DNA from: an uncultured Clostridium sp.
GTDB taxonomy: Bacteria > Bacillota > Clostridia > Clostridiales > Clostridiaceae
Reading direction: 5' to 3'
NCBI GenBank assembly: GCA_902785295.1
Contig: CACZYK010000002.1
Coordinates: 1 to 64,000, forward strand
Length of the DNA: 64,000 nt
Below, one piece after another: positions 6,372-63,481 of the stretch. Within the stretch, counting starts at the first letter, position 1. Every line of letters begins with the position of its first letter. Position numbers and translations under genes: made by a program. The notes beneath the pieces were generated by a model. That model was given only the letters and a program-made list of their open reading frames with translations, was not told where the DNA came from and did not search any database.

Positions 6372-7000
6372 TGAGTATAAGTATAGCTTTAACAAAGGGA
6401 AGACTAGAAAAAGAAACTGTAAAGTTATTAGATAAAGCAAATTATGGAACAGAAGAGCTTAAAGATAAAGGAAGAAAACTTGTATTCAAGGATACTAAAA
6501 AAGATATAAAATATTTTTTAGTAAAGGCAGCAGATTCAATTACTTATGTTGAGCATGGAGTTGCAGATATTGGAGTTGTAGGAAAAGATACTTTAATGGA
6601 ATCTAACAATAATTACTATGAAGTGTTAGATTTAAACATTGGTAAGTGTAAGTTTATAGTAGCCTCTTTACCAGAAAAAAATATTTTTAAGAAGGTTGGA
6701 CACATAAAGATAGGTACTAAGTATCCAACAGTAGCAAGAGAGTACTTTAAAAAGAAAAACATAGATGTTGAAATTATAAAAATTGAAGGGTCAGTAGAGC
6801 TTGCACCAATTTTAGGATTATGTGATGCAATAGTTGATATCATGGAAACAGGAACAACTTTAAAAGAAAATGGACTTGTAGTATTTGATACAGTATGTCC
6901 AATAAGTGCAAGAGTGATTGTAAATAAGGCAAGTTTTAAGCTTAAGAGAAAAGAAATTGGTGACTTTATTGAAAGTTTACAATCAGTAATAGAAAAATAG
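6371..7000 (+). CDS. hisG: ATP phosphoribosyltransferase, short form
   Basis: Catalyses the first committed step of histidine synthesis, joining ATP and PRPP. It is the 209-residue short form, which lacks the C-terminal regulatory domain and needs HisZ, matching the upstream neighbour. Visible landmarks are the N-terminal IALTKGRLEKETVKLL and the PRPP-binding loop DAIVDIMETGTTLKENGL near residue 155. TAATG overlap with hisZ implies translational coupling. Feedback inhibition by histidine would act through HisZ in this type. Confidence 0.95.
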   Translation: MSISIALTKGRLEKETVKLLDKANYGTEELKDKGRKLVFKDTKKDIKYFLVKAADSITYVEHGVADIGVVGKDTLMESNNNYYEVLDLNIGKCKFIVASLPEKNIFKKVGHIKIGTKYPTVAREYFKKKNIDVEIIKIEGSVELAPILGLCDAIVDIMETGTTLKENGLVVFDTVCPISARVIVNKASFKLKRKEIGDFIESLQSVIEK

Positions 7001-24520: not shown

Positions 24521-24535
24521 AAAACTTTTATAAAA

Positions 24536-24625
24536 AGGAAATTTCTAAACTTGTTTATTTTATTAAAATTTGTTATTAAGGTAACAAGTTATCCATAGTT
24601 TAATAAATTAAATAATTTTTTATTG
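24536..24625. repeat. Dispersed repeat R, copy 2
   Basis: Aligned without gaps against the reverse complement of copy 3 (33538-33625), 58 of the first 70 positions agree, starting from the same AAAGGAAATT end. Contains TTATCCATA at 24589-24597. Lies between convergent genes. Confidence 0.75.
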
Positions 24626-24634
24626 AATAAAAAA

Positions 24635-25993: not shown

Positions 25994-26001
25994 ATAATAG
26001 T

Positions 26002-26046
26002 GAATTATTACTTTGCACTTATATTTAAAAAGCAAAGTAATAATTC
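26002..26046. terminator. Perfect 15-bp hairpin between convergent genes
   Basis: GAATTATTACTTTGC pairs perfectly with GCAAAGTAATAATTC around a 15-base loop. The inner part (ATTATTACTTTGC) is identical to the stem of the structured hairpin at 33643-33706, but the loop differs and lacks that element's core. Likely a bidirectional terminator. Confidence 0.75.
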
Positions 26047-26058
26047 AAAATATTTCTT

Positions 26059-31177: not shown

Positions 31178-33457
31178 ATGAAAAGACAATTAACTCCTAG
31201 TGAAGTGTTATTTAATGTTGATTTTGATGAAAAAAATGAAAATTTAAAACTTAAGGATATTCCTGAGGTAAAAGCTTTTTATGAAAAGATAAAAAGAGGA
31301 ATAACTATAGAGGAAGATGGATATAATTTATATCTTATAGACTCTTTTTCAAAAGAAAAATTAAATAATATAATGAATTATATAAAAAATATATATAAGT
31401 CATCAAAAGCTCCAAGCGATATATGTTATGTCACATTAAAAGATAGAAAAAAACCAGAGGTCTTGATTCTTAAAAATGGAAGAGGAAAAGTCTTAAAGGA
31501 AACAATTGAGAAAATAAAAAAAGACTATTTAAATTCTGCTAGGAGCTTTTATAATGGTTCATCAGAGTCAGAAAAGGATTTAATTTTAGAAAAGATTCAT
31601 GATAAAAGGGCTTCTTATGTGGAAGAACTTGTTAAATTGTCTAAAGATGAAGGCTTTGATATTAAACCTACTAATGGAGGCTTTGCATTTTTCCCATTGA
31701 AAGGGGAAGGAGATGTGATGACTGAAAAGGAATATGATGATTTACCAGAAAATAACAAAGAAACTATAATAGTTAAAGCTTCATGTCTTAAGAAAAAGGC
31801 TGAAAAAGTCTTAGAAAAATTAAGAGTTATGGAGCTAGATGTTATTAAGGAATTAAAGATATTATATTCAAAATTTCTATCTGAGGATATGGAGCTTAAA
31901 AAAGAGGGATATCTTTTAAAATTTCTTACAGAAGATAAGGCATATGAATATTTAGAAAGACTTTTCATAGAAATAGAAAATGGACTTATTGAATGTTATA
32001 ACATTAATATAGAAGATGATGAAGAAAAAATAGAAAACCTTTTAAATGGTTTTGAAATTTCTGTTCTTGTTGATAATAGTAACTATAAACACCCTAGAGT
32101 TATTTATGAAGAAGACCCAACAATATCAAATTTGATAGGAAGTATAGAATATGAAAATCACAATGGAAATTATGTTACAAACCTTTCTTTAATAAATCCA
32201 GGGAAATTACTTTTAGCAAATGAAGGTTGTGTTATAATAAGGCTTAATCAACTTGCTAACAATGTATATAGTTATTATTATTTAAAAAAGGTATTATTAA
32301 CTGGAAAAGTAAGTTTAGAATGTTCTAAAAGCTATTTAGATGTATTAGCTGTAAATGGATTAAAGCCTGATTCTATAGAAGTTAAGGTTAAAGTTATTTT
32401 AATTGGAGATTATCAAAGTTATGATATTTTATATAGAGAAGATGAAGATTTTAAAAAGCTTTTTCCATTAAGAGTAGAATATCCAAGTATTATAAAAAAA
32501 GATGGAATATGCTTTAGTGAGATAAAAAAATATATTTATCATAGAGGATTATCAAATAATATAAAAAAAATAAGTGAAGATGGTATAAAAGAAGTAATTA
32601 AATATTTATCAAAAATAGCAGGTAGTAGAGAAAAAATAAGCATTGATAGTAGCTATATAGATAAATTATTGATTCTTGCTAAAAATAAAGACAAAAGCAA
32701 AAATGAGATAGATGTAGAGGACATAAGAGATATTATTTATTTAAAAGATAGTATTGAAAAGGAAGTATTAGAACAATATAAAGATGATAAGATGATTTTA
32801 TCATTAAATGGGAAAAAGGTAGGAGCTATAAATGCATTATCAGTTCTAGATACAGGATGGTGTTCTTTTGGTAAACCTATGAGATTAACTTGTGTTGTAT
32901 GTAAGGGAGAAGGAAAAATTCTTGATATTCAAAAAGAAAGCAATTTATCAGGAAGTATTCATGAAAAATCTATAAATATAATAAAGGGATTAATAAGTAA
33001 TTTAATTAATCCTTATGAAAAACTTCCAGTAGATTTTCATCTTAGTTTCGAACAAACATATGGAATTATAGATGGAGATAGTGCTTCTGTTGCAGAAGTT
33101 CTTTGTATATTATCTGGATTAAGTAAAAGGGGGATTAAACAAAATATTGCTGTAACAGGTTCAATAAATCAATTTGGAGAGGTTCAACCAATAGGAGGAT
33201 TAAATGAAAAGATTGAAGGCTTTTACAATGTGTGTAAGCTTAAGGAAGAAAAAAATATTGGAGTATTAATTCCTGAATCTAATATAAATGAACTTATTTT
33301 GAATAATGAAGTGGAAGAAGCCATTAAAAATAAAGAGCTTATTATATATACGATGAATTCTTTAGATGATGCAATTGAAACTATGATTTTAGAAGATGGC
33401 GAAAGCATAGATTGTTTTTATTCTGAAATAAAAAAGGAAATATTAAAATATAAATAA
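31178..33457 (+). CDS. Lon-like protease with degenerate AAA+ region (LonC-like)
   Basis: 759 residues. The C-terminal 180 residues are a Lon protease domain with the dyad intact: Ser635 (IDGDSASVAEV, replacing the usual DGPSAG) and Lys678 (PIGGLNEKIEGF), 43 residues apart. The central and N-terminal parts resemble an AAA+ module with an inserted coiled coil but show no Walker A (GxxxxGKT) and no clear Walker B, so ATP use is unlikely. This matches the LonC-type class. The ATG at 31178 may be coupled to a seven-codon ORF just upstream. A single gene with its own terminator. Confidence 0.8.
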   Translation: MKRQLTPSEVLFNVDFDEKNENLKLKDIPEVKAFYEKIKRGITIEEDGYNLYLIDSFSKEKLNNIMNYIKNIYKSSKAPSDICYVTLKDRKKPEVLILKNGRGKVLKETIEKIKKDYLNSARSFYNGSSESEKDLILEKIHDKRASYVEELVKLSKDEGFDIKPTNGGFAFFPLKGEGDVMTEKEYDDLPENNKETIIVKASCLKKKAEKVLEKLRVMELDVIKELKILYSKFLSEDMELKKEGYLLKFLTEDKAYEYLERLFIEIENGLIECYNINIEDDEEKIENLLNGFEISVLVDNSNYKHPRVIYEEDPTISNLIGSIEYENHNGNYVTNLSLINPGKLLLANEGCVIIRLNQLANNVYSYYYLKKVLLTGKVSLECSKSYLDVLAVNGLKPDSIEVKVKVILIGDYQSYDILYREDEDFKKLFPLRVEYPSIIKKDGICFSEIKKYIYHRGLSNNIKKISEDGIKEVIKYLSKIAGSREKISIDSSYIDKLLILAKNKDKSKNEIDVEDIRDIIYLKDSIEKEVLEQYKDDKMILSLNGKKVGAINALSVLDTGWCSFGKPMRLTCVVCKGEGKILDIQKESNLSGSIHEKSINIIKGLISNLINPYEKLPVDFHLSFEQTYGIIDGDSASVAEVLCILSGLSKRGIKQNIAVTGSINQFGEVQPIGGLNEKIEGFYNVCKLKEEKNIGVLIPESNINELILNNEVEEAIKNKELIIYTMNSLDDAIETMILEDGESIDCFYSEIKKEILKYK

Positions 33458-33477
33458 ATTTGAAAACTATATTTAAT

Positions 33478-33525
33478 AAAAACACTGTATATTGTTATAA
33501 ATTTAAAGCAATATATAGTGTTTTT
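33478..33525 (+). terminator. Terminator after the LonC-like gene
   Basis: Stem AAAAACACT and GTATATTG pairing with CAATATAT and AGTGTTTTT, followed by T-rich sequence. Confidence 0.8.
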
Positions 33526-33537
33526 ATTTAATACTAT

Positions 33538-33625
33538 AGGAAATTATTATATATTTTGAAAATTATGGATAACTTGCTAAGTTAATAATAAAGCTTAATA
33601 AAAGAAACAAGTTTAAGAATTTCCT
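33538..33625. repeat. Dispersed repeat R, copy 3 (full)
   Basis: Bounded by inverted ends AGGAAATT (33538) and AATTTCCT (ends 33625). Reverse orientation relative to copy 2. Contains TATGGATAA at 33564-33572. Followed at once by the structured hairpin at 33643. The 33458-33851 gap contains no gene: it holds a terminator, this repeat, the hairpin and the spoIIA promoter region. Confidence 0.75.
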
Positions 33626-33642
33626 TTCATTTAGCTAGAAAG

Positions 33643-33706
33643 TATTAATTATTACTTTGCGTTGACTTGGAGCCTGTCGACGGAAAAAGCAAAGTAATAA
33701 TTAATA
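33643..33706. repeat. Structured hairpin element A
   Basis: Perfect 18-bp stem (TATTAATTATTACTTTGC, 33643-33660, with its complement 33689-33706) enclosing a 28-base apical part with the core GACTTGGAGCCTGTCGAC at 33664-33681. The core ends themselves can pair (GTTGAC with GTCGAC). Element B at 35547 has nearly the same core but an unrelated perfect stem. Confidence 0.75.
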
Positions 33707-33788
33707 TTTTCTTATTGGTATAGGTGTTTTGAAGAAAAATATATCTATTAATAAAATGGATAATAAGTAAATATTATACATATAAAGA

Positions 33789-33818
33789 TTGACTTTAAAA
33801 AGGAATATATGTTAAAAT
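33789..33818 (+). promoter_or_regulatory. Possible promoter of the spoIIA operon
   Basis: TTGACT at 33789-33794 and TAAAAT at 33813-33818 (18-base spacing). The expected sigma-H control could use AAAGGAATA at 33799-33807, but a matching -10 at the right spacing is not clear. Confidence 0.4.
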
Positions 33819-33851
33819 ATGTAAAGAAATTAAATAAGGAGGAGCATATTT

Positions 33852-34187
33852 ATGCATTTAAAGTTTGATAAATATAATGATGTGCTTATTGTTTATTTGT
33901 TTGGAGAACTTGACCATCATAATGCAGAGATTTTAAGAGTAAAAATTGATGATAGAATAGATAGAGAAGGAGTAAAAAAAGTTATATTAAGCTTTCAAGG
34001 TGTTTCTTTTATGGATAGCTCTGGTATTGGAGCAGTAATTGGAAGATATAAAAAAATAAATAGCAAAGGAGGAAGTCTTTGTGTAGTAGATATTGATGAA
34101 AGAATAAATAGAGTTTTTGAACTTTCAGGACTATATAAGATAATAAAGCAGTATAAGAATATTGATGAAGCATTAAAGGTAATTTAA
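33852..34187 (+). CDS. spoIIAA: Anti-sigma-F factor antagonist SpoIIAA
   Basis: STAS-domain protein that frees sigma-F by binding SpoIIAB in the forespore. The phosphorylation site lies in [19 protein letters not shown] (Ser near residue 56), as in Bacillus. Length 111 is normal and AGGAGG precedes the ATG. First gene of spoIIAA-spoIIAB-sigF, the standard order. Confidence 0.97.
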
Positions 34188-34200
34188 TGGAGGAGGCTTT

Positions 34201-34626
34201 ATGAGCGATAATAAAATAAGGATTGAATTTCAAAGCAAATCTCAAAATGAAGGTTTTGCAAGAGTTGCTATTGCATCATTTATTTCTCAATTAGACCCTA
34301 CAATAGAGGAAATAACTGATGTTAAGACAGCTGTTTCAGAAGCAGTAACAAATGCAATTATTCATGGATATGAAGGAAAAGAGGGGGAATTTGTAGAAAT
34401 AGAGGCAGAAATTTCAGGGAGAGAGGTTAAAATATCAATAATTGATAAAGGAATTGGAATTAAGAATATAGAGGAAGCAAAGGAGCCTTTATATACTTCA
34501 AGACCTGATTTAGAGCGTTCTGGCATGGGATTTACTGTTATGGAAACCTTTATGGATAGTATGATAGTAGAAAGTGAAGAAGGAAAAGGAACTGTAGTCA
34601 CATTAAAAAAGAAATTTGCAGAATAA
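34201..34626 (+). CDS. spoIIAB: Anti-sigma-F factor / serine kinase SpoIIAB
   Basis: GHKL-type kinase that holds sigma-F inactive and phosphorylates SpoIIAA. N box [17 protein letters not shown]1 box [16 protein letters not shown] and G2 box [17 protein letters not shown] are intact. Length 141 is normal. GGAGGAGG lies just before the ATG, 13 bases after spoIIAA. Confidence 0.97.
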
Positions 34627-34641
34627 AGTTAGGTGAAGACT

Positions 34642-35400
34642 ATGGCAAATGTGAAATTGGAAAGAGAAGAATATAACTATGAAGATAATTCAAAACTAAT
34701 TCCATTAGCACAAAATGGAGATAGTAAAGCAATGAATAAACTAATAGAAATGAATCTTCCTTTGGTATCATCTATAAGTAAAAAGTTTCTTAATAGAGGA
34801 TATGATTATGAAGATATTTTTCAGGTTGGAAGTATTGGACTTATTAAATCAATAAAAAATTTTAATACAGGATTTGAAGTGAAATTTTCAACCTATGCAG
34901 TTCCTATGATAATAGGTGAAATAAAGAGATTTTTAAGAGATGATGGAATGATAAAAGTCAGTAGGTCAGTAAAAATTCTCGCAAAAAAAATTCACTTTGA
35001 TAAACAAGATTTAGTTAAAAAATTAAATAGGGAACCAACAATAGAAGAATTATCTGAATATACAGGAATAGACCAAGAAGAATTAATATTTGCCATGGAA
35101 TCATCAGCAAGTATGAACTATCTTTATGATACAATTCATCAAGATGATGGTGCACCAGTTTTATTAATAGATAAATTAAGCGAGGAAGCAGAAGAAAACT
35201 TTGATTTAGTAAATAAAATAGCACTAAAAGAAGCAATAAAACAATTAGATAGTAAATCAAGACAAGTAATAATGCTAAGATACTTTAAAGATAAAACCCA
35301 AAACCAAGTAGCAAAAATGTTAGGAATAAGTCAAGTACAAGTATCCAGAATAGAAAAAAAAGTCCTCCTTGCAATGAGAGAAAAACTAAACGAAGACTAA
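34642..35400 (+). CDS. sigF: RNA polymerase sporulation sigma factor SigF
   Basis: First forespore-specific sigma factor. Region 2 includes GYDYEDIFQVGSIGLIKSIK and FSTYAVPMIIGEIKRFLRDD; region 4 has the helix-turn-helix KTQNQVAKMLGISQVQVSRI. The ATG at 34642 follows AGGTGA; a GTG three codons upstream falls inside that site. Length 252 is normal. It directs genes such as gpr and probably the spoVA, lonB and 29885 genes with sigma-G. Confidence 0.97.
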   Translation: MANVKLEREEYNYEDNSKLIPLAQNGDSKAMNKLIEMNLPLVSSISKKFLNRGYDYEDIFQVGSIGLIKSIKNFNTGFEVKFSTYAVPMIIGEIKRFLRDDGMIKVSRSVKILAKKIHFDKQDLVKKLNREPTIEELSEYTGIDQEELIFAMESSASMNYLYDTIHQDDGAPVLLIDKLSEEAEENFDLVNKIALKEAIKQLDSKSRQVIMLRYFKDKTQNQVAKMLGISQVQVSRIEKKVLLAMREKLNED

Positions 35401-35402
35401 AC

Positions 35403-35517
35403 AAAAAAGTTGTTTGAGCTATTATGAAAAAAATTTGTAACAATATATACCACAATCTTACCTTAATAAATATATTGTATTAACATTTTTTAAATAACAG
35501 TTACAAACAACTTTTTT
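35403..35517 (+). ncRNA. Large nested stem-loop after sigF
   Basis: A perfect 14-bp outer stem (AAAAAAGTTGTTTG, 35403-35416, with CAAACAACTTTTTT, 35504-35517) encloses an inner 9-bp stem (ACAATATAT, 35440-35448, with ATATATTGT, 35470-35478). It begins right after the sigF stop and ends in a T run, so it is at least a terminator, but 115 bases is far longer than the others here and it could be a stable 3' RNA. Confidence 0.5.
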
Positions 35518-35546
35518 ATGTTTAACAAATAATAATTTTGTTTATT

Positions 35547-35633
35547 AAAATCTTAGGTATCTTATTTTATGAAGCAGTGACTCGGAGCTTGTCGACTAAA
35601 GCAGCTGAATAAATATAAGATACCTAAGATTTT
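35547..35633. repeat. Structured hairpin element B
   Basis: Perfect 19-bp stem (35547-35565 with 35615-35633; arm AAAATCTTAGGTATCTTAT) enclosing the core GACTCGGAGCTTGTCGAC at 35579-35596. Sixteen of 18 core bases match element A while the stems are unrelated. It lies between the convergent sigF and 35664 genes and could terminate both. Confidence 0.75.
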
Positions 35634-35663
35634 TGAAACAAGCCTATATTTTTTTAGAAAGTG

Positions 35664-36833
35664 TTACCATTCGCCAGGGCCAGCAACTAAATAAACAGTT
35701 ACTGCTCTTCTTCCAAAGGCAAAACATTCAGCTTCACTTAACATAAATAAATCAATTCTATTTCCCTTTATAGCTCCTCCACAGTCAGCAGCAATTGCAT
35801 ATCCATATCCAGGAACATATAATTTACTTCCATAAGGAATAACTGTTGGGTCTATAGCAACTGTACTTATTCCATTAGGGTCTCTATGAGTTCTTAAACC
35901 AGTAGAGGTATAAGCATCATTACAATATGCTGTAGCTACAAAAGAATAAGCCTTTTTAAATTTAGAAGTATCTACATTTTTTAATTCAAAAGAAAATTCA
36001 GCACTTGTATCATCTTCTTTTAAGGTCGCTAATTTAGAATTAGCAGCAGTAATAGCATCATTAGTTTTCTTTATTACAGATTCAGTTGAAATTTCAGGTA
36101 ACAAACTACTTAAAACAGAAATAGCTTCAGTAAGTTGTGCTCTGTTAGGAGAAGATGAATTTACCACTTCTATTTGATGTTTTACTAAGTTTTCTTCATT
36201 TTCTGCTATTTTTTCTTTTAATTTTTCAATTTCTTTAGAAACTTGTATCTTTTTCTCTTCAAGTAAGGATTTCTTTTCTTGAATTGTATTAAGATTATTT
36301 TTAACTTCATTATTTAAAGAATCTAATGCATTTTTTTGATTTTCTAAGTTAGAAACTGTTTCATTTAATTTATCTAAATTATCATTATGTTCTTCTATTA
36401 ACTTATTATCAGCATCTATTATTTTGTTTGTATAATTAATTCTATCTACAAGCTCTCCTAAACTTTCAGAACTTAATATAAAAGTTAATGTATTGAAAGT
36501 AGAGGTTGTCCCATTTTTGTATAATTCTCTAATTCTAGTAGAAAGCATTTCTTCATCATTTTCTATTTGTTTTTTTAATTCTGAAATATTATTTTCTTTT
36601 ACAGAAATTTCATCCTTAAATTTTTCTATTTCACCTTCATATTCAGAAACTTTTTTTTCAAGACTATAAATTTCTTTATTAAGATTAGAAATCTCATCAT
36701 TTATAGATGTAAGCTCTGATGACATATCATTAAATTGAATTTTATTTTGTTGCAAATCATTAGTTGCATAAACATAATGAGTATTTGCCATAATGAGCAT
36801 AGATGCTAATAAAAGCGATATTTTTTTCTTCAT
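35664..36833 (-). CDS. Secreted coiled-coil protein with a 3D domain
   Basis: Signal peptide MKKKISLLLASMLIMANTHY with likely cleavage near VYA, then a long coiled coil (about residues 30-215), then a C-terminal 3D domain with its three conserved Asp (ATAYCNDAYTSTGLRT; VAIDPTVIPYGSKLYV; AIAADCGGAIKGNRIDLF). The 3D domain is found in lytic transglycosylases such as YuiC, YocH and Rpf-like proteins, so this is a likely cell-wall hydrolase with a CwlO-like N-terminal stalk. AAGGTGG precedes the ATG. Flanked by sporulation genes but on the opposite strand. Confidence 0.85.
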   Translation of the reverse strand: MKKKISLLLASMLIMANTHYVYATNDLQQNKIQFNDMSSELTSINDEISNLNKEIYSLEKKVSEYEGEIEKFKDEISVKENNISELKKQIENDEEMLSTRIRELYKNGTTSTFNTLTFILSSESLGELVDRINYTNKIIDADNKLIEEHNDNLDKLNETVSNLENQKNALDSLNNEVKNNLNTIQEKKSLLEEKKIQVSKEIEKLKEKIAENEENLVKHQIEVVNSSSPNRAQLTEAISVLSSLLPEISTESVIKKTNDAITAANSKLATLKEDDTSAEFSFELKNVDTSKFKKAYSFVATAYCNDAYTSTGLRTHRDPNGISTVAIDPTVIPYGSKLYVPGYGYAIAADCGGAIKGNRIDLFMLSEAECFAFGRRAVTVYLVAGPGEW

Positions 36834-37046
36834 TGTAATCCACCTTTTTAATTCTAGTTCATTAATTTACGAATTATTATAACATAAAAAAAGAAAAAAT
36901 ACAAATGATGGAAAAAAGTTGAAAAAGATTAGGTTTACTAATTAAAATAGCTTGATATTTTTTAATAGAAAAATTAAAAAATAGTGTTTTTTATTTCTAT
37001 TATTAGGAATACTAAGTTATAGGAACAAGAAAGGAGATGAATTTTT

Positions 37047-54728: not shown

Positions 54729-54753
54729 ATGTTTTGTAATAAGATATTAAAAG

Positions 54754-54845
54754 GCTAGGGGCACCAACTATGAGTTGGTTGAGAGATGTTCTGTTAGAAC
54801 TGAGACTCTAAAACCTGATGTGGTTAATACCACCGTAGGGAAGCA
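54754..54845 (+). promoter_or_regulatory. TPP riboswitch
   Basis: THI-box aptamer: GCTAGGGGCACC at the 5' side, the conserved CTGAGA (here ACTGAGACTCT), then AACCTGATGTGGTTAATACC and the closing CGTAGGGAAG. It is followed by a terminator hairpin, so binding of thiamine pyrophosphate should stop transcription of thiS-thiF-thiE. The 54656-54985 gap holds this riboswitch, its terminator and repeat copy 5. Confidence 0.97.
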
Positions 54846-54869
54846 ATAAAAGTATGATTTATGAGATTA

Positions 54870-57050: not shown

Positions 57051-57100
57051 AAAGTATAAATCTTAAGTAAGAATTTTACTAAGATTTATGCTTTTTTATT
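57051..57100 (+). terminator. Terminator after the LytTR gene
   Basis: Stem ATAAATCTTAAGTAA with TTACTAAGATTTAT (one bulge) and a T run. Confidence 0.75.
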
Positions 57101-57117
57101 TTTTTATAGGAAATTAT

Positions 57118-57190
57118 ATTATTCTCTAAGTTGAGGATAACTTACCAATATAATATTAAAGTTTAATAAAAGATAAGTTTAAATTTTTTT
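57118..57190. repeat. Dispersed repeat R, copy 6
   Basis: AGGAAATTAT at one end, then GGATAACTTACC and AAGTTTAATAAAAG; same orientation as copy 3 and, like it, followed directly by a structured hairpin. Confidence 0.65.
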
Positions 57191-57206
57191 GTTTAATTAG
57201 AAATTA

Positions 57207-57267
57207 TTAATTATTATTTTATGTTGAGTTGGGGTCCACAGAGAGGAAAAAGCAAAATAATAATTAA
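57207..57267. repeat. Structured hairpin element C (degenerate core)
   Basis: Perfect 14-bp stem TTAATTATTATTTT (57207-57220) with its complement at 57254-57267. The apical part begins GTTGAGTTGGGGTCCACAGA and ends GGAAAAAGC, matching element A at both ends but with a degenerate core. Between the convergent LytTR and 57305 genes. Confidence 0.55.
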
Positions 57268-57304
57268 CACTTTTTTTATGGTTTCTACGTAAGATATAAA
57301 AGAA

Positions 57305-63226: not shown

Positions 63227-63249
63227 GTAAAAGTAATAAAATAATAACA

Positions 63250-63481
63250 AAACTGTGAATGAGAAAGTAGGTATAATTAAGTTTTCAGGGAGAAGTGGTC
63301 ATGGACTGAAAGCCATTTTAAATAAGGTTATATTGAAGTTCGCTCAGGAGTTCTAGCTGTGAAATTTTTAGTAGTAGCTAGCGGGAAACCGTTAAATTAA
63401 TTTGAGTTGGGTTTTTTATAAAAGCCAATTAGGGTGGTAACGCGGAAATATTTTCGTCCCTTTTTAGGGACGGATTTTTTT
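63250..63481 (+). promoter_or_regulatory. T-box leader of pheS (Phe-specific)
   Basis: tRNA-sensing leader. The T-box AGGGTGGTAACGCG is at 63431-63444, followed by a terminator (CGTCCCT / AGGGACG, 63455-63472) and T run. Upstream stem I contains GGAGAAGTGGTCATGGACTG. A UUC at 63339-63341 could be the phenylalanine specifier, which fits the downstream gene, but I cannot fold it fully. Uncharged tRNA-Phe would promote readthrough. This fills the 63210-63546 gap. Confidence 0.9.

Follow-up and report, generated by a model that had tools for sequence, protein, structure and literature searches.

We suggest that two long hairpins, A and B, in a 64,000-nt stretch of DNA from an uncultured Clostridium sp. 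(hereafter the window) represent two related families of mobile, non-autonomous hairpins, and that the tip common to both is the recognition site of one putative trans-acting factor (probability about 0.62). The two main families are called type 1, which includes A, and type 2, which includes B. The repeat family as a whole is small and scattered; dozens of copies occur in this Clostridium, and a few relatives have it too.

Hairpins A and B and their common tip

The earlier note on this DNA had described two hairpins with perfect stems, and a core common to these unrelated stems. Repeat search and folding against shuffled sequences confirmed both hairpins, with a perfect stem of 18 bp in A (33643-33660 paired with 33689-33706) and of 19 bp in B (35547-35565 paired with 35615-35633). 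The core was confirmed as well, with two matches within the window and zero expected from 100 shuffles. The hairpins and their tips are located as follows.

33637..33712, + strand: hairpin A, arms 33637-33663 and 33686-33712 (27 nt, 93% complementary)
33664..33684, + strand: tip of A, GACTTGGAGCCTGTCGACGGA
35547..35633, + strand: hairpin B, a type 2 element, arms 35547-35568 and 35612-35633 (22 nt, 95% complementary)
35579..35596, + strand: core of B, GACTCGGAGCTTGTCGAC, followed by TAA in place of GGA (decayed tip)

RNA folding gave z = -9.1 for A and z = -7.2 for B, and none of 200 shuffles was equally stable. The arms of A and B are unrelated, and the tip is common to both. The conserved unit extends past the core to a GGA, which stands next to the core in A and in most relatives; B is without this GGA and looks like a decayed copy of a type 2 hairpin repeat. 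The proposal that the ends of the core pair with each other stood in part: the GAC...GTC pairing holds in A and B, but it is not kept in other species, where tips such as GACTTGGAGCTTGCGACGGA or GACTTGGAGCGCATGCGACGGA are found.

The letters of the tip suggest a pairing of GAC-TT-GGA opposite GAC-GGA, with two tandem G-A mismatch pairs around C-G and G-C and a TT bulge, below a two-pair mini-stem. The suggested G-A pairing scheme rests on letters that are invariant. For the mini-stem, a closing Watson-Crick pair is present in 11 of 18 distinct loop sequences, a result matched by 90 of 2000 shuffles, so that its covariation is weak and the mini-stem only suggestive; in the window's genome its second pair is usually a C-T mismatch.

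A and B match no Rfam family. Both gathering and relaxed thresholds gave only chance-like weak matches over the elements (the best being mir-2154, E 0.22, below the gathering score), and the search of 12 related loci returned only a T-box and no intron domain V. A T-box leader (63246-63464, + strand) and a TPP riboswitch (54747-54858, + strand) were the sole Rfam matches of the window at the gathering threshold. A terminator scan that needs three G-C pairs detected no terminator-like site in 33440-35700, and by this consensus neither A nor B has the combination of short G+C-rich stem, small loop and T-run of an intrinsic terminator, though B could still be the terminator of the minus-strand gene.

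Between A and B lies a trio of genes, STAS - HATPase - sigma-70, which by its domain order we take to be the spoIIA operon with sigF. Copies of type 1 and type 2 adjoin many other genes, and for this reason we draw no tie between the elements and sporulation.

Repeat families, paired arms and placement

According to the earlier note, a selected structure or a mobile palindrome should have further genomic copies, with the core kept where the stems differ. Such copies are present: the window's genome (G000, 3.2 Mb in 151 contigs) contains 73 core matches with up to three mismatches, 38 of them exact, and four matches of the reversed pattern. Constancy of the core on differing stems holds, also between species. 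We read the copies of this genome in 76 distinct contexts, with up to four mismatches; some of the type labels come from rough regular expressions.

Type 1 is a composite of about 190 bp, in which a 5' domain of about 110 nt is followed by the hairpin, and the 5' domain is matched at least 42 times in this genome, with 40 of 212 candidates scored. The type 1 element starts with TTTTAT and ends with the T-rich TTTTTTAT; TTTTAT or a near variant stands at most of the type 1 starts listed, and the right ends were judged by eye. Type 2 is one long hairpin, and its arms share nothing with the type 1 arms. Type C is type 2 with a second, larger cap (10 full-length matches in the genome), a branched structure that replaces GTCGAC-GGA and whose inner helix pairs perfectly in 14 of 14 caps found by regular expression, in four versions. 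The covarying inner helix is flanked by GAG and CGA in several type C copies (L199, L148, L195 and others), and type C variants carry GACGCAAGAG instead of GACTTGGAG.

Among the type 1 variants, some carry another cap (L168, L193), some have lost the tip (L170, L171) and some are deleted internally with both ends intact (L182, L186). In the chimeric copy L048 two type 1 stems meet at the tip, and the matching site in the related genome SUG910 (L098) has agreeing arms. Of 51 copies, 7 overlap a mechanical ORF of at least 100 aa. The window itself contains, beside A and B, the following related features.

33527..33639, + strand: type 1 5' domain ending in hairpin A, 94% identity to the 110-nt consensus
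33470..33533, + strand: AT-rich palindrome that includes a T-run, immediately 5' of the element of A, arms 33470-33501 and 33502-33533, 88% complementary
57099..57273, + strand: older type 1 copy, 5' domain 57099-57201, hairpin arms 57201-57220 and 57254-57273, decayed tip
24534..24632, - strand: type 1 5' domain without hairpin, 83% identity
19807..19878, - strand: type 1 5' domain fragment, 81% identity over 72 nt
26001..26047, + strand: probable remnant stem without core, 14 nt per arm common with A, relation judged by eye
36954..36984, + strand: empty site, occupied by a type 1 element in SUG910, flank identities 93.7% and 98.2%, with 175 nt found in SUG910 only

The arms vary in sequence and stay paired. 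In a set of 28 hairpins, 18 of 20 arm pairs were changed on both sides, one-sided G-U changes were few, and the covariation score was 0.548, compared with 0.151 for shuffles and 0.123-0.176 for slid versions, a score biased upwards because the 28 rows were hand-picked from 69 candidates with the pairing in view. The slid controls and the independent copies of other genomes agree with this result. Fixed positions in the type 2 stem stay mismatched while the flanking pairs change, and plain correction of an imperfect palindrome would erase such mismatches. On the tip-sense strand, G-T mismatches exceed A-C mismatches (17:11, 40:14 and 55:30 in sets of 39, 45 and 44 hairpins), which hints that the tip-sense strand is the folding strand, the test being not a clean one because related copies are included.

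The placement of the elements relative to genes differs between the two types. A terminator-like stem whose end lies no more than 13 nt from the type 1 start precedes 16 of the 36 copies in the window's genome and 16 of the 28 in the related genomes SUG910 and RUG296 (some of them at the same sites); the controls gave such a stem at 206 of 3000 random positions and at 159 of 2157 TTTTAT positions, which include the elements' own starts. Upstream of A, the palindrome at 33470-33533, with a stem score of 14 in this adjacency test, is the probable terminator of the upstream lon-like gene and is taken as the insertion target. For type 2, with tandem copies counted singly, the right-hand neighbour is on the opposite strand in 35 of 39 copies, and the cap lies 49-68 nt past the neighbour's stop codon in 17 of 41 copies and 98-125 nt past it in nine. 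B, viewed on the minus strand, starts about 30 nt past the stop codon of a 3D-domain gene (35664-36833). Type 1 and type 2 are oppositely oriented relative to their neighbouring genes.

Distribution and same-site changes between genomes

In a first set of 59 genomes, the core within one mismatch was found only in the window's genome and its relative G016. A scan of named genomes gave 83 stretches, and among the 80 loci listed, 36 belong to Clostridium sp. SUG910 (G083) and 11 to RUG296 (G088); four further loci (L099, L155, L115 and L151) are hairpins with other stems, the MAGs JAQSYC, CAKZUB and JAAYPK have the core on wholly different stems, and the other 29 loci were judged by eye to be chance matches. 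The covariance model (E of at most 0.001) had matches in 13 of 206 family genomes, with up to 26 candidates scored per genome, and in one of 398 phylum genomes, the window's own, under strict filters by which weak matches are lost in both searches.

The tip pattern GACTTGGAG-loop-CGACGGA, searched as GACTTGGAGN{3,7}CGACGGA, was detected in 14 of 225 order genomes, one of which (G168) has a single unchecked match. The matches numbered 131 in G064, 38 in SUG910, 36 in the window's genome, 31 in G016, 23 in G004 and 17 in G067, and the reversed pattern occurred once among the 225 genomes, in G049. The copies that we read in other genomes follow the type 1 plan, with a first hairpin that starts near GGAAA and ends in TTTC, a linker like TCCTTCAGT, a long tip hairpin and a T-run. 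G064 combines the same linker and tip with no fewer than two unrelated stems, and in the G067 copies L449, L451, L453 and L455 the gene's own terminator-like hairpin seemingly replaces the first hairpin, the linker and tip hairpin following directly. One RUG296 copy (L135, about position 6582) carries the type 1 5' domain inverted and at the opposite side of its hairpin, an arrangement that a flip of the cap between its two arms would give.

Five viral contigs had the exact core, with no matching arms by eye, and the looser tip pattern gave 45 viral stretches, with at least 9 of 12 arm positions paired in none of the matches listed, so that there is no sign of a phage vehicle. Plasmids searched with the type 1 consensus gave no match.

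The same sites were compared in SUG910 and RUG296, whose flanks are mostly 90-99% identical where compared, and collinear flanks were obtained for 44 of 105 elements of the window's genome in the DNA compared. One clean presence/absence site is among those listed, the site at window 36954, filled by type 1 in SUG910, and its T-rich ends (TTTTAT) leave a target-site duplication, such as a MITE would show, ambiguous. The apparent empty sites L177/L086, L178/L322 and L143/window 18032 have poor flanks or extra sequence.

Filled sites differ in their stems and caps. The site of A in SUG910 has the same 5' domain and tip on another stem, with the orthology resting on the right flank and the next gene because the SUG910 contig starts within the element. 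B differs from its SUG910 counterpart at three stem pairs, all of them compensated (A-T to G-C, G-C to A-T, A-T to G-C), and the SUG910 copy retains the GGA that B lost; L038/L149 have one compensated difference, C-G to A-T. Exchange of the whole cap, type 2 versus type C on matching arms, was detected at at least four sites (L201/L092, L202/L157, L016/L093 and L211/L148), with flanks 99% and 100% identical for L201/L092. Both the cap exchange and the stem change might have arisen by gene conversion among old copies and not by transposition. A tandem array has five tips in contig C75 of the window's genome (L023/L061) and three in SUG910 (L134), with a unit of about 202 nt gained or lost.

Known repeat systems, partner enzymes and competing explanations

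The bcr repeats of the Bacillus cereus group are described as intergenic, about 100-400 bp long, present in tens of copies per genome, with mobile features and linked to TTTAT, and the account of them in the part of the source used here names no known transposase (PMC6542083). Compared by description, our elements are similarly intergenic, in tens of copies and with TTTTAT ends on type 1, and the TTTAT link is suggestive (PMC6542083). The TTTAT end motif of bcr1 is found on type 1 at most of the starts listed, with right ends judged by eye, and the bcr repeats sit in another bacterial group. To our knowledge, bcr1 has no conserved tip on exchangeable stems.

REP elements of the GTAG and CGTC families are high-copy intergenic palindromes with stems that vary by family, and in the part of the source used the CGTC REPs are without a dedicated transposase (PMC3733652). 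Our elements are likewise high-copy intergenic palindromes with differing stems. Unlike REPs, which are 20-40 bp long with the tag at one end, they are about 100-190 bp long and the conserved tag is the apical tip; neither a GTAG/CGTC end tag on a 20-40 bp palindrome nor a repeat-flanked Y1 gene was found. The elements work like REP and bcr repeats, yet both by tag and by transposase they fall outside the REP definitions tested. Clop-1 of C. perfringens (93 nt) and Clot-1 of C. tetani (74 nt) are intergenic stem-loop repeats in the part of the source used (PMC2267715), and our elements, likened to them by description, may overlap with one or the other.

The searches for a partner enzyme found no association with carriage of the elements, either for the Y1_Tnp profile (9 of 13 carriers, 9 of 19 non-carriers) or for the RVT_1 profile (7 of 13 carriers, 12 of 19 non-carriers). 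Y1_Tnp is absent from the copy-rich window genome and SUG910, and RVT_1 from the carriers G016, G064, G086, G067, G076 and G010. None of the 12 Y1 loci examined, nine of them RAYT-like in length, has a tip hairpin, and a RAYT origin was dropped for that reason. The genes beside 25 loci of other genomes include no recurring transposase-like family and no parent transposon.

Group IIC introns insert beside DNA stem-loops such as terminators. The elements differ from them in that G064, with its 131 tip matches, has no reverse transcriptase domain and no domain V was matched in Rfam, and the carriers do not consistently have the reverse transcriptase that derivatives of such introns call for (RVT_1 in seven of the 13). 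The single RVT_1 match of the window's genome, a 355-aa frame (C11:36383-36943, L370), gave the impression of being unlike a group II intron protein. Among the publications listed by the literature search, none was described as dealing with this tip-hairpin family.

The results taken together suggest that a putative cellular factor holds the tip and promotes the spread of the hairpins between genes. Type 1 would be placed, as 5' domain and long hairpin, at the T-run immediately behind a terminator-like hairpin, and type 2, as one long hairpin, would be placed just past the stop codon and antisense to the gene. The tip GACTTGGAG-loop-CGACGGA would form on the tip-sense single strand (ssDNA or RNA) and be recognised by one putative trans-acting factor, which would be common to all families, because only the tip is constant across stems, caps, 5' domains and species. 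A copying step that required the folded hairpin would keep the arms complementary, while stems, caps and copies could be exchanged; arms that must pair and are free in sequence are as expected if the spread step requires a folded strand. This explanation, in which mobility is the probable cause of the copy number, is favoured by the 73 core matches against four of the reversed pattern, the unrelated stems with the same tip in one genome and in other Clostridia, the covarying arms, the fixed mismatches of type 2, the differences at the same sites, the terminator-like stems before type 1, the sporadic high-copy distribution and the G-T excess. Counted against it are the searches (Y1_Tnp, RVT_1 and neighbouring genes) in which no mobilising enzyme was found, the single clean presence/absence site and the opposite orientation of type 1 and type 2. 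The earlier note had named three options, a selected RNA structure, a loop bound by protein and a mobile palindrome; its reading gained support, with the evidence leaning to the mobile palindrome, and the role of the tip as a binding site is our inference.

A family of regulatory RNAs dispersed over the genome, with the tip-sense strand transcribed, the tip bound by a cellular protein and the copies kept for their function, would also have covarying stems around an invariant tip, and the G-T excess on the tip-sense strand and the terminator-like T-run at the end of type 1 are consistent with it; the two GGA motifs of the tip resemble CsrA sites. We consider this explanation improbable in view of the lack of an Rfam match, the presence of the elements in only 13 of 206 family genomes, the gain and loss of sites between close genomes and the antisense position of type 2 (35 of 39 right-hand neighbours on the opposite strand), which means that the transcript of this neighbour contains the tip's complement. 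Much the same low probability is given to ordinary terminators grown into long palindromes, with arms kept perfect by replication template switching and a tip that gene conversion would have spread without any dedicated factor. Type 2 does lie at a terminator-like distance past the gene (49-68 nt in 17 of 41 copies, 98-125 nt in nine), and chimeric, converted copies exist (L048); the same tip is found in other genera and MAGs without stem similarity, the fixed mismatches of type 2 survive, type 1 follows a separate terminator-like hairpin, and the insertion at window 36954 is clean, all of which argues against such an origin.

The elements might also be non-autonomous derivatives of IS200/IS605-type transposons (Y1, ssDNA), REP- or PATE-like, with the transposase lost from this genome. 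Structured hairpins with an apparent functional strand, TTTTAT at the type 1 ends and Y1 genes in the genus are compatible with such a descent, which is nevertheless very improbable given that the copy-rich window genome and SUG910 have no Y1_Tnp and that the tip hairpin was at none of the 12 Y1 loci. Returning to mobile hairpins with a common tip-binding factor, a bolder version is a new transposition system of clostridia, in which one conserved enzyme, encoded away from its substrates, would recognise the folded G-A-paired tip (ssDNA or RNA) and place hairpins beside hairpins, with stems, caps and 5' domains as modular cargo; we regard it as unlikely, though conceivable.

Repeats as large as these have effects on intergenic DNA, on gene ends and on genome assembly, and for orphan repeat families such as the CGTC REPs and the bcr repeats the moving enzymes are not known. 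One tip on many unrelated stems, together with close genomes in which sites are filled, empty, re-stemmed and re-capped, forms a natural experiment that isolates what the putative factor would have to recognise, with the tip as a bait for finding it.
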